NCBI GenBank assembly: GCA_015075405.1
Contig: JABTUK010000001.1
Coordinates: 620,001-684,000 of the forward strand
Length of the DNA: 64,000 bases
Reading direction: 5' to 3'
From: Anaerolineales bacterium
Lineage (GTDB): Bacteria > Chloroflexota > Anaerolineae > 4572-78 > J111
A program made the translations under genes and the position numbers. Under the pieces are notes generated by a model, which saw only the letters and a list, made by a program, of their open reading frames with translations, was not told the DNA's origin and did not search any database. Shown here piece after piece: positions 18,971-59,687 of this stretch (its first letter is position 1; the number at the start of each line of letters is the position of its first letter).

Positions 18971-20452
18971 TTACTGCGAAGACATAGCGGCGGCCAAATC
19001 GGCAGCCCAGGGATAACTGGTGAGGAAGGGGTCGGGCTTGATGGGGCCTTCGCTCTCCCAGACCGTTTCAATCAAGCCATCGTCCAGGATTTTGCCGATG
19101 CGGACAGTCTTGTAGGTGTGCTGGCTTTCGCCATCAATCTTGACCAGCCCTTCGGGAGCCAGATACTCGATGTCACCGCCATCCGCCGCCGCCTGAACCG
19201 CCGCTACCTCGGTCGAACCAGCTTTCTCGACCAGGGCTTTCCAGAGGTAGACGCCGAAGTAACCGGCTTCAATCGGGTCAGCCGTCACCCGGTCTTCGCC
19301 ATAGGCGGCTTTGTAAGCTGCCACAAAGGTCTCGTTTTCAGGCGACTCGACGGTCTGGTAGTAGTTCCAGGCGGTCAGATGCCCGGCGATGTTCTCCGGC
19401 CCGATGCCGCGCACTTCTTCCTCAGCCACACTGACCGACATCACCGGCAGGTCTTCCGCGGTGAAACCGGCATCCTTGAACTGTTTGAAGAAGGCCACAT
19501 TGCTATCGCCGTTGAGGGTGTTGAAGATGGCATCAGGTTGAGCGGCCTGGATTTTGCTGATGATGGTGCTGAACTCGGTATCACCCAACGGGAGGTACTC
19601 TTCCCCAGCCAGGGTGGCCCCGGCATCGGCCAACTGCAACTTGATGATGGTGTTGGCCGTGCGTGGGAAGACATAGTCAGAACCGAGCAGGTAGATATTC
19701 TTGTAGCCCTGGTCGAGCAGGTATTGCACCCCAGGGATGATCTGTTGGGTCGGTTCCGCCCCGGTGTAGAAGATGTTGGGCGAGGACTCTAGCCCTTCGT
19801 ACTGGACCGGGTAGAACAACAAGCCGTTGTTCTGCTCGACCACCGGCAGGACGGCTTTGCGGCTGGCGCTGGTCCAGCAGCCAAAGATGACCGCCACCTG
19901 GTCTTCCTGCAACAGCTTGGCTGTCTTCTCGGCAAAGGTCGGCCAATCGCTGGCTCCGTCTTCCAGCACCACTTCCAGTTGGCGGCCCAGCACCCCACCA
20001 GCAGCGTTGATTTCCTCAATCGCCATCATCGTCGCATCCTTGACCGAGACCTCGCTGATAGCCATCGTCCCACTCAGCGAGTGCAGGATGCCCACCTTGA
20101 TTGGCCCTTCCTCACTCGTCGCAGCTTCGGCTTCTGCTGTTGCTTCGGCGGTCGCTTCACTTGTGGCCTCGACTGTGGCTTCTACAGTTGCTTCGGCAGT
20201 GGCCTCCGTAGCGGCTGCCTCCGCTTCTACTTCTTCCACCGCTTCCTCGGTGGCCGCGGCAGCCGGTTCTTCGGTGGCGGCGGGCGCTTCCGCTTCTACT
20301 TCGGCCACGGCTTCCTCGCTGGCGACAGCGGCAGGCGCTTCCGCCTCAGACTCAGCCGGTTCTAAGGTGGCAGCCTCGCTGGTGCAAGCGACCAGCATCA
20401 CCAGCAAAATCAACAAGACAAATAGTTTGTAGGCAACAACTTTCTTTTTCAT
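18971..20452 (-). CDS. urtA: Urea ABC transporter substrate-binding lipoprotein UrtA
   Basis: Urea-binding protein (493 aa) anchored by lipidation at Cys23 (VMLVAC). Residues 24-115 are an exceptionally long Ala/Glu/Thr/Val linker with [11 protein letters not shown]-like repeats. The binding domain ([19 protein letters not shown] onward) shows UrtA-type features such as [17 protein letters not shown] and [12 protein letters not shown], which separate it from amino-acid binding LivK. The gene is first in the transporter operon, behind a long leader (20530-20735) with two terminators and a strong promoter upstream. Confidence 0.95.
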
Positions 20453-20529
20453 TTTCTCCTCGCTTAAGGTTGAAAGTTGACCTGCCTATTCAGCCCCTCG
20501 CCCGCAGAATTGATTCCGGGGGCTGGAGC

Positions 20530-20735
20530 ATGGTATAATAAAATAGACAGGACTTAGACGAGTCACCTCAAGTCTTAGCGGGCTGAGGTTCGTCTCAACG
20601 TTTTGTCGGCGGAAGGGGATGCCGTTTGCCCTCCAGCTATGCGGCATCTCCTTCTATTCTTTACTAACGATTTGTAAAGCAGGCTTTGTTTGATTTAGGG
20701 TGGAATCAGCAGCGGTAGCATCTGTTTCTCCTCCT
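20530..20735 (-). ncRNA. Candidate structured leader RNA of urtA, shared with narK
   Basis: On the minus strand, 5' to 3': AGGAGG (20735-20730), a TGATTC word (20708-20703), hairpin P0 (CTTTAC/GTAAAG, 20679-20659), hairpin P1 (20651-20615), a 7-nt spacer, the word GACAAAACGTTGAGA (20607-20593), hairpin P2 (TGAGGT/ACCTCA with AGACGA/TCGTCT below it) and TACCAT (20535-20530). All elements occur in the same order before narK at 53802-53987. P1 is 37 nt in both, with 26 identities and a 17-nt loop of consensus UArCUkGvvGGyrAr from its third base. I match it to no riboswitch I know. A ligand or protein sensing nitrogen status is a guess from the two gene contexts. Confidence 0.6.
20695..20721 (-). 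CDS. Possible 8-residue leader peptide in the urtA leader
   Basis: ATG at 20721 opens MLPLLIPP and stops at 20695. AGGAGG lies 8 bp before the ATG, an ideal ribosome-site spacing. Three of eight residues are proline and three leucine, so ribosome pausing could couple to the downstream hairpins. The narK leader has AGGAGG in the same place but no start codon behind it, which weakens the case. Confidence 0.3.
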   Translation of the reverse strand: MLPLLIPP

Positions 20736-20755: not shown

Positions 20756-20791
20756 AAAATAAAAAACTCCCAAGCAGGTACGCTTTGGGAG
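20756..20791 (-). terminator. Intrinsic terminator T2 in the urtA leader
   Basis: Minus strand: CTCCCAA...TTGGGAG stem (20791-20767) followed by TTTTTTATTTT (20766-20756). It lies between the promoter at 20927-20955 and urtA, so urtA transcription must pass it. Confidence 0.8.
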
Positions 20792-20833
20792 CTTCTCGGC
20801 TCATTGACTATAAAATTTATTGGTCTCAGGTAA

Positions 20834-20926: not shown

Positions 20927-20955
20927 ACTATAACATGTATTGGATGCTTTGTCAA
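20927..20955 (-). promoter_or_regulatory. Sigma-70-type promoter of the urt-ure operon
   Basis: Minus strand: consensus -35 TTGACA (20955-20950), 17-bp spacer, -10 TATAGT (20932-20927). The transcript would run through T1, T2 and the structured leader, about 470 nt before the urtA ATG. Confidence 0.8.
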
Positions 20956-53651: not shown

Positions 53652-53702
53652 AAGGCTCTCAAGGGTGAGAAACAAACGGCTCATCTTTGAGAGCCTTTTT
53701 AA
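53652..53702 (+). terminator. Intrinsic terminator A upstream of narK
   Basis: GGCTCTCAA (53654-53662) pairs with TTGAGAGCC (53687-53695), then TTTTT. It ends the kinase-regulator transcript and may also act on a transcript starting before it. Confidence 0.8.
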
Positions 53703-53728
53703 TACAACCCTATAAATTTTGAGCCGAG

Positions 53729-53786
53729 ACGCTCTCTGGTACAGAAAAATTTGGTTAAACTCTGTATTTGAGGGCGTTTTTGTTTG
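53729..53786 (+). terminator. Intrinsic terminator B upstream of narK
   Basis: ACGCTCTC (53729-53736) pairs with GAGGGCGT (53770-53777), with TACAGA/TCTGTA inside, followed by TTTTTGTTT. A GCCCCGCCGGGGC hairpin follows at 53786-53798. Confidence 0.7.
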
Positions 53787-53801: not shown

Positions 53802-53987
53802 AGGAGGTAATAGATAGAAAAATCAAAAACATGATTCACTATAAGGTTGGTTTTCACCGCACGGTGAAATAAAAAGGAGATACCGGCTAACTTGGCGGTG
53901 AGCGGCATCTCCAAAAGGTGACATAGCGTTTAGAGCGCACCCCCGGGGGTGCAGTTCTAATTGCTTTGCCTTTTTTCATTGTACCAT
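53802..53987 (+). ncRNA. Candidate structured leader RNA of narK, shared with urtA
   Basis: 5' to 3': AGGAGG (53802-53807), TGATTC (53832-53837), hairpin P0 (TTTCACCG/CGGTGAAA, 53852-53869), hairpin P1 (53876-53912: GGAGATACCG, 17-nt loop, CGGCATCTCC), 7-nt spacer, GACATAGCGTTTAGA (53920-53934), hairpin P2 (GCACCCCCGGGGGTGC, 53937-53952) with TCTAA after it, U-rich stretch and TACCAT (53982-53987). A further GCCGT/ACGGC hairpin is at 53989-54005. The order, P1 length and P1-to-word spacing equal those of the urtA leader. P2 with its flanks followed by TTTGCCTTTTTTC could serve as a conditional terminator. Confidence 0.6.
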
Positions 53988-54045
53988 AGCCGTCTAAACA
54001 ACGGCAAAAAGCCTGATCCAAGCCGAAGAATAAAGGAGTAGAACG

Positions 54046-55386
54046 ATGAACTTCAGAAATAAAGCCACCCAAATTGAGTTGCTTAACTTTACCAAGCCGC
54101 CTATGCGCGCGTTTCATGTGACCTGGTTTGCCTTTTTCCTGTGCTTTTTTGGTTGGTTTGGAATTGCGCCGCTCATGTCAATTGTGCGTGAAGACTTGAG
54201 CCTGACTAAAGAACAAATTGGTAACACGGTTATTGCCTCGGTCTTCATCACCATCTTTGCCCGTCTGCTTATCGGCTGGCTGTGCGACCGGTTTGGCCCC
54301 CGCCTGGCCTACACCTATCTGTTGGCGCTCGGCTCTCTGCCGGTGATGCTGATTGGCCTGTCGCAAGATTACACCCAATTCCTGCTGTTCCGTCTGGCTA
54401 TCGGCGCAATTGGGGCCTCATTTGTGATTACCCAATATCACACCAGTGTGATGTTTGCCCCCAATGTGGTCGGCACGGCCAATGCGACCACAGCCGGTTG
54501 GGGTAACTTGGGCGGTGGCGTAACCCAGTTTGCCATGCCACTCTTGTTATCGGCAACGCTGATGTTTGTGGGCGACCAGTTCCTCGGCTGGCGAATAGCG
54601 ATGGTGATTCCGGGGGTTGCCCTCCTGTTGACCGGGATTGCCTACTACTTTCTCACCACCGACGCCCCCGACGGCAACTTTGTTGCTCTGCGGGCCCGCG
54701 GTGAAATGCCTCCGTCTAAAGACATAAACGGTACCTTCTGGGAGGCCATCAAAGATTACCGGGTCTGGGCTTTGTTCATTCTATATGCCGCCTGCTTCGG
54801 GATTGAATTGACCATTAATAACACGGTTGCCCTCTATTTTACCGATTACTTCGGCCTGGGCGTGACCGCTGCCGGGACGGTCGCTTCGCTGTTCGGATTG
54901 ATGAACCTCTTTGCCCGCTCGTTGGGCGGCATTATCAGCGACAAGATTAATCTGACTCGCGGCCTGCGTGGCCGGGTGCAGTTCCTGTTTGCTTGCACCC
55001 TGCTGGAAGGGATTGCCCTGATCTTCTTCTCGCAAATGACCGCTCTGGCTCTGGCTATCCCTTTATTAATTATCTTTAGCCTTTTTGTGCAGATGTCCGA
55101 AGGAGCTACCTATGCCGTAGTTCCCTTTGTCAACAAACGGGCCATGGGGTCGGTAGCCGGTATTGTGGGCGCCGGCGGAAATTTTGGCGCAGTGATGGCC
55201 GGTTTCCTCTTCCGTACCGAAATGCCCTGGTCTACCGCTTACTTCATCATCGGTATCGCCGTAGCCGTTTCAGCCGTGGCCGCCTTCGCCGTACGCTTCT
55301 CCACCACCGCCGAAAAGAGCGCCAAAGAAGAAATGGAAACCCGGCTGCGAGAGTACGAAGCAGCTCAAACTCTGGCTTCGGCCTAA
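54046..55386 (+). CDS. narK: Nitrate/nitrite MFS transporter
   Basis: A 446-aa NarK/NasA-type transporter of the major facilitator superfamily with twelve membrane segments. The nitrate signature region AGWGNLGGGVTQFAMPLL is present, as are RLLIGWLCDRFGPR (loop 2-3 motif) and an Arg in the first-half pathway. KGAGTAG-like ribosome site AAAGGAG precedes the ATG. Directly followed by nirA and narB, so it should import nitrate for assimilation. Confidence 0.95.
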   Translation: MNFRNKATQIELLNFTKPPMRAFHVTWFAFFLCFFGWFGIAPLMSIVREDLSLTKEQIGNTVIASVFITIFARLLIGWLCDRFGPRLAYTYLLALGSLPVMLIGLSQDYTQFLLFRLAIGAIGASFVITQYHTSVMFAPNVVGTANATTAGWGNLGGGVTQFAMPLLLSATLMFVGDQFLGWRIAMVIPGVALLLTGIAYYFLTTDAPDGNFVALRARGEMPPSKDINGTFWEAIKDYRVWALFILYAACFGIELTINNTVALYFTDYFGLGVTAAGTVASLFGLMNLFARSLGGIISDKINLTRGLRGRVQFLFACTLLEGIALIFFSQMTALALAIPLLIIFSLFVQMSEGATYAVVPFVNKRAMGSVAGIVGAGGNFGAVMAGFLFRTEMPWSTAYFIIGIAVAVSAVAAFAVRFSTTAEKSAKEEMETRLREYEAAQTLASA

Positions 55387-59448: not shown

Positions 59449-59457
59449 CTCGACAAA

Positions 59458-59687
59458 GGCTGTGATGGAGAAAAGTAAGCCAATTCCCTAGATCAGGCAG
59501 AGACGCGCCGGTTGGTGCAAGGCGCGCGACGGGACGGCTGAATTCCACTCTTGAGCCGGCGGCGATGAGCCGCTCCGGGTGCGCCCGTTAGCGCGCAGCA
59601 GAGATTGTCGGGGCAACTCCCCGGCGAAAAAAGGTGGCACCGCGAGTGATGACCCTCGCCCTTTTTAGGGCGGGGGTTTTTGTTTTC
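59458..59687 (+). ncRNA. T-box leader (tRNA-Ser responsive) of serS
   Basis: The leader has the T-box core AAGGTGGCACCGCG (59631-59644), which pairs with the uncharged tRNA end, followed by terminator CCCTCGCCCT/AGGGCGGGGG and a T-tract (59653-59687). Stem I includes the AAAAGTAAG region (59470s), distal GCGCCGGTTGGTGCAAGGCGC, and a specifier loop reading GAATTCCACTC, in which TCC (59544-59546) is a serine codon. When uncharged tRNA-Ser (anticodon GGA) binds, the antiterminator should form and serS be expressed. Confidence 0.92.

Follow-up and report, generated by a model that had tools for sequence, protein, structure and literature searches.

A candidate family of cis-antisense small RNAs with a CopA-type loop in the leaders of uptake operons in Chloroflexota

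The window analysed is a 64,000-nucleotide stretch of the genome of an Anaerolineales bacterium (assembly GCA_015075405.1, contig JABTUK010000001.1, positions 620,001 to 684,000). It carries urtA, encoding a urea ABC transporter substrate-binding protein, on the minus strand (18971-20452; TIGR03407, 582 bits) and a gene for a narK-type nitrate/nitrite transporter on the plus strand (54046-55386; TIGR00886, 308.5 bits against a cut-off of 311.7), the latter followed by nirA- and nasA-like genes. A sequence-only reading of the window had described the same ordered leader before both genes, with three hairpins (P0, P1 and P2), a conserved word and a U-rich run followed by TACCAT, and had proposed a nitrogen-status riboswitch or protein-binding attenuator. 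The two copies are real, and the parts described are present at 20530-20735 on the minus strand and at 53802-53987 on the plus strand: the P1 stems of the urtA and narK copies are equal at 18 of 20 positions and their loops at 8 of 17, the word GACAwArCGUUkAGA is equal at 12 of 15 positions, and a gapless alignment gives a common core of 61 nt. TGATTC and P0 are unconvincing as common features, as the 5′ parts align poorly and that of the urtA copy folds no better than shuffled sequences (z +0.52). A blastn search with one window copy as query did not recover the other.

A covariance model was built from the two window copies only (R1), and a search of 61 genomes with it gave matches in 9 other genomes, nearly all of them flanked by promoter-like and terminator-like sequences of their own. 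Since this two-copy model recovers other copies, with E-values down to 3e-13, the likeness of the window copies is more than chance. A hairpin model built from 25 copies (R2), with which members were found using a model made from members, matched 19 of 396 genomes of class Anaerolineae and, besides the window's own genome, 1 of 400 genomes drawn from the phylum. Three R2 matches (G250a, G130a and G012a) that have no promoter/U-run pair and lie inside or near genes were judged to be chance and set aside before counting; a pattern match without that pair (L159) was likewise judged to be chance. The counts given below rest on 38 curated Anaerolineae loci, mostly from metagenome-assembled genomes, among which orthologous loci are not independent. 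Two loci found after curation, L160 and L143, are additional to these, the latter being a family relative in the single-contig 5.3-Mb genome of a member of another class of the phylum, and the family in Chloroflexota may be estimated at about 40. The further copies include some at urt, nar and nif genes.

The sequence-only reading could not match the element to a known riboswitch, and this agrees with its absence from Rfam 15, which has no family for either window copy at the gathering score and none that is credible at E ≤ 5. The Rfam matches within the window both lie elsewhere. One is an ordinary T-box leader (109 bits; 59453-59666, plus strand) before serS, encoding seryl-tRNA synthetase; the other is a 5_ureB_sRNA match (RF02514; 13231-13531, plus strand), antisense to the minus-strand urease alpha gene, which probably reflects conserved urease coding sequence. 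No earlier description of the family was found in the open-access literature, nor did any described small RNA family in the phylum Chloroflexota turn up there.

The strand proposed for the conserved product was the opposite of that indicated by the 38 loci. On the strand antisense to the leader, 36/38 loci have a -10 box at a distance of 60-90 nt ahead of the hairpin, compared with 2/38 on the leader strand, and TTTT occurs within 12 nt after the hairpin in 34/38 and 0/38, respectively. The stem cells contain 19 G-U pairs and 4 A.C mismatches when read on the antisense strand, and both A.C mismatches in P1 become G-U pairs there. In both window copies the -35 and -10 boxes read TTG..., 18 nt, TAYAAT, with an extended -10; the U-rich run and TACCAT, last in the ordered set described, are the reverse complement of this extended -10 box (ATGGTATAAT and ATGGTACAAT). 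The -10 box, the U-run and the G-U asymmetry together indicate that the conserved transcript runs away from urtA and narK. The element is best described as a putative gene for a small RNA, encoded opposite to the leader, with predicted transcription starts.

At the urtA locus, the predicted promoter of the antisense RNA (20510-20539, plus strand; TTGATT, 18 nt, TATAAT, 10/12 matches, with a TGG-extended -10) is faced by urtA, and its -10 box lies at the conserved 60-90 nt from the hairpin. The small RNA would be about 119 nt long (20545-20663, plus strand, its 5′ end being placed about 6 nt after the -10 box by inference) and would consist of a 5′ hairpin, a terminator hairpin and a U-rich tail; its 5′ domain folds with z = -4.1. 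The terminator/kissing hairpin (20615-20651, plus strand) is an R2 match with E 2.2e-6 and carries the loop variant UUUGCCCUCCAGCUAUG, for which no partner hairpin was found among the stem-like palindromes of the window's own genome. The complementary loop on the leader strand, GCUGGAGG, retains the U-turn motif YUNR as CUGG. P1 occupies the same interval on the minus strand, where it folds as the exact complement of the antisense RNA with a leader promoter upstream, and is the proposed target hairpin. That leader promoter (20927-20955, minus strand) reads TTGACA-17-TATAGT with 11/12 matches, and in another genome (G002) urtA is preceded by a very similar sequence, TTGACA...TATACT. Between promoter and target, an AGGAGG, a strand-enriched Shine-Dalgarno sequence, is followed by the tiny open reading frame MLPLLIPP* (20695-20735, minus strand). 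The hairpin P2, with a weak U-rich run (20535-20614, minus strand; TTTT, closing within 2 nt), is a possible attenuator.

The narK locus has the same layout in the other direction. The predicted antisense promoter (53978-54007, minus strand; TTGCCG, 18 nt, TACAAT, extended -10) faces the narK-type gene and would give an RNA of about 106 nt (53867-53972, minus strand) with a 5′ hairpin (z = -3.8 for the 5′ domain), a terminator hairpin and an UUUUUAUUU tail. The terminator/kissing hairpin (53876-53912, minus strand) is matched by R2 with E 6.8e-12 and has the hexaloop CGCCAA, and P1 on the plus strand of the same interval, with loop UUGGCG and a YUNR motif, is the proposed target. It is followed by P2, a leader hairpin of -26.6 kcal/mol that closes at the U-run GCCUUUUUU (53913-53976, plus strand), making a candidate attenuator that the antisense RNA could control.

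Across the family, the full-length RNA is 97-123 nt (predicted 5′ ends) and is made up of two hairpins, a long one at the 5′ end and then the terminator hairpin. The 5′ domain folds as a long hairpin with a mean z of -3.1 (33/37 loci below -1). In the terminator stem, whose counterpart on the leader strand is P1, 97.5% of cells pair, and compensatory changes of the kind proposed as a check on P1 are seen in 9/10 pairs, which have changed on both sides; there are 19 two-sided stem cells against 3.6 expected, a number reached by 0/500 shuffles, and slid controls fail. The view that the element is a structured RNA is upheld by this covariation, while a nitrogen-status riboswitch or protein-binding attenuator on the leader strand is unsupported. 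The apical region of 16-20 nt is centred on CGCCAA (16 loci) or on its exact reverse complement UUGGCG (10 loci), so that 26/38 loci have one of the exact cores and 12 have variant loops; by loop orientation, 24 loci are type I and 14 are type II. Orthologous loci mostly agree in type: all copies seen of a group at LacI and substrate-binding protein genes are type I, the one in the other class among them. The narK locus differs, with a type I loop in the window genome and a type II loop in G005. Either orientation is expected to work, and inversion to be readily tolerated, if the loop pairs with the opposite strand of its own locus, as it would with an antisense target. The U-turn strand keeps YUNR at 37/38 loci and in 11/12 of the variant loops, compared with 31% by chance, related loops not being independent.

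The gene on the promoter side is on the opposite strand in 34/35 loci and the gene behind the terminator in 36/38, which places the RNA antisense within the gap between co-directional genes, often between a LacI/ROK/GntR-type regulator gene and an uptake operon. Sugar-ABC binding proteins are the commonest products of the genes that face the promoter, and most of the annotated ones serve sugar uptake or catabolism; others include UrtA urea binding proteins, NarK, NifH, a MIP channel, PTS_EIIC, a PFL-like glycyl-radical enzyme and a fucose-isomerase-like protein. Only 5/38 copies face nitrogen genes, which, with the conserved product on the opposite strand, speaks against a nitrogen riboswitch or attenuator. 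On the leader strand, a Shine-Dalgarno sequence (AGGAGG or GGAGGT within 150 nt before the hairpin) is found in 15/38 loci, against 1/38 on the other strand and 2.2 expected, and often precedes a very short open reading frame. A leader hairpin with a U-run abuts the start of the antisense RNA in 17/37 loci and is absent or weak in the others; only at a few nitrogen loci could a good promoter for the target-strand leader be located. Short open reading frames of the form M-x-[IV]-R-x-P-P or MFIRAP* were observed on the leader strand of G317, G005h, G009d, G005a, G000c and G001c; they may be akin to RAPP-type ribosome arrest motifs. Separately, L108, L111 and L126 share a conserved GTTTGTCAAAC-type palindrome upstream of the antisense -10 box, in the promoter region of the MKRPTQ-LacI group, which is a possible operator common to the operon and the antisense RNA.

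The idea of a common nitrogen leader, which is unsupported for this hairpin, fits a separate element just upstream of the described interval on the leader strand at both window loci. Here GAGCCGAGAnGCTCyC forms the 5′ arm of an intrinsic terminator (GAGCCGAGAAGCTCCC for urtA, 20761-20802, minus strand; GAGCCGAGACGCTCTC for narK, 53721-53780, plus strand). A search of 61 genomes for the pattern GAGCC[GT]AGAnGCTCyC (GAGCCkAGAn) gave 7 occurrences (control, 2); with the terminator required, 396 genomes gave 6 (control, 0), the seventh occurrence, before narK of G005, having a longer terminator loop. All 7 lie before nitrogen genes (urtA twice, narK twice, glnA twice and a GlnN-like gene once) in the window's own genome, G002, G005, G015 and G023; one glnA is confirmed as GlnA and the other is near-identical, whereas the GlnN-like gene, which has no NCBIfam match, was judged by its sequence. 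A GAGC-CnAGAn-GCUC mini-hairpin would exclude the terminator. The element is a candidate nitrogen attenuator. Before it, a further terminator-like hairpin with a U-run was seen at both loci (urtA, about 20890-20838, minus strand; narK, 53654-53701, plus strand), which suggests that attenuators are arranged in tandem in these two leaders. A diverged antisense RNA candidate that the covariance models missed was also noted before the GlnN-like glutamine synthetase gene (GGAGACATCA...TGGTGTCTCC, with TATAAT; L149, G005:C712), about 130-250 nt after the GAGCC element.

From the gene, its strand and structure, its antisense position and the identity of its loop, all of them read from the DNA, we infer transcription of both strands, kissing in vivo and repression by one of several routes. 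Transcription of the antisense RNA would start within an uptake-operon leader and head away from the first gene of the operon, and the leader mRNA would carry the hairpin complementary to its terminator hairpin. The two loops would kiss, with the U-turn (YUNR) on one strand speeding contact, and from there pairing would extend. Expression of the operon would probably fall, possibly through the leader terminator-like hairpin (17/37 loci, as in pT181), through the small upstream open reading frame or through double-strand cleavage by RNase III. An IncI-like pseudoknot downstream of the target loop, with the 5′ UTR of the gene, showed no significant excess (127 vs 121.9 ± 3.9). The preferred reading, with a probability of roughly 60%, is a chromosomal cis-antisense RNA of the CopA/CopT kind that acts on uptake-operon leaders.

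Foremost among the alternatives, although quite unlikely, is a family of small RNAs acting in trans, whose common loops would kiss other RNAs (type I with type II) or mRNAs and so set up a nutrient hierarchy. A loop core common to paralogues with different stems and 5′ domains is what such a family would show, type I and type II loops are complementary over a mean of 7.7 Watson-Crick pairs compared with 3.7 for type I with type I, both types are present in several genomes, and type is mostly constant among orthologues. However, I/II complementarity has no clear excess within genomes (8.06) over that between genomes (7.65), Hfq was not detected in the window's own genome, and such a family would leave unexplained why the RNAs are so regularly placed antisense (far-side gene on the opposite strand in 36/38). 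Action only in cis would in turn need convergence for one loop to be common to paralogues, as among plasmid groups. A bidirectional or protective terminator cassette, or a DNA palindrome bound by protein, with neither antisense nor trans RNA function, is improbable: the near-palindromic stem, the occurrence of both loop orientations and the frequent position between regulator gene and operon are in its favour, but it requires no narrowly spaced -10 box, G-U pairs or structured 5′ domain, and the U-runs are one-sided (0/38 on the other side). A structured leader that senses nitrogen status by ligand or protein is highly improbable, as the copies before urtA, narK and nifH and the nitrogen-linked element upstream at both window loci are outweighed by the contradictory strand evidence, by most annotated copies lying at sugar or other uptake operons, and by inverted loops that are incompatible with a fixed aptamer.

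If the cis-antisense reading is true, kissing through UUGGCG would be a regulatory device of general use and not one peculiar to plasmids, and the orthologues, loop inversions and variant loops would be natural replicates for testing which features a kissing loop needs in order to function. The possibility that uptake operons cross-talk adds to this interest. A wider proposal, that a chromosome-wide CopA/CopT-like set governs carbon and nitrogen uptake and cross-talks via complementary loops in an Hfq-free, RNA-only hierarchy, is speculative and rather unlikely; cross-talk is kept as no more than a possibility because type I/II matching has no clear within-genome excess.

Kissing antisense control via a UUGGCG loop is a textbook plasmid mechanism. 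The terminator loop of CopA of R100 (RF00042) reads ACU-CGCCAA-AGU, and the same 12 nt are found in one copy in the window's own genome (G000d). CopT carries the U-turn motif YUNR (PMC10798244), and CopA/CopT of the IncFII plasmids R1 and R100 resembles the present family in its loop (equal or equivalent here), in the internal loop or bulge beneath it and in the position of YUNR on the target. Both have a short open reading frame in the leader (tap in R100), which here lies upstream of the target and not downstream. CopA/CopT differs in acting on a plasmid repA leader, compared with dozens of chromosomal loci before uptake and catabolic genes here; the stems are unrelated and the loop is invertible in the Chloroflexota family. 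In its letters the loop is the six-base one through which plasmids such as R100 regulate copy number, here on an unrelated scaffold and in both orientations. The family is not classed as a member of CopA because the RF00042 covariance model gave no match in 7 family loci at E ≤ 5 (R100 control, 106 bits) and no replication gene is involved.

The RNAI/SLI pair of the IncI-complex plasmids (IncI, IncB/O and IncK) kisses through the same loop, 5′-rUUGGCG-3′, and this contact between the antisense RNA and the leader hairpin is the key step (PMC10724649). It differs from the present family, in which there is no sign of a repZ-type pseudoknot and no rep gene. The hairpin with a U-run at the antisense start in 17/37 leaders may lead to the same outcome as countertranscript-driven attenuation in pT181. 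ANTAR target RNAs, which need two hairpins with A1 and G4 in their hexaloops (PMC3369931), are alike in having hexaloop hairpins and nitrogen genes, and two ANTAR proteins are encoded in the window's own genome; this identity was rejected by inspection, as the family loops are CGCCAA/UUGGCG and the nitrogen element CnAGAn was seen without the first hairpin. As a side observation, one locus of that genome (L008, C3:1259365-1262523) encodes a sensor kinase together with an ANTAR response regulator, next to a gene that by eye resembles glutamine-dependent NAD synthetase. The DonS family of Bacteroides comprises multi-copy cis-antisense RNAs of 78-128 nt at PULs (PMC7366714). It belongs to another phylum and targets susC, which is not among the annotated facing genes here (SBP, MFS, NifH, MIP, PTS_EIIC, PFL-like and others), and the comparison is one of size and placement, not of sequence or loop. 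In size range, in being multi-copy and in lying divergent from a nutrient-uptake gene (here 97-123 nt, 34/35), DonS is the closest functional parallel.
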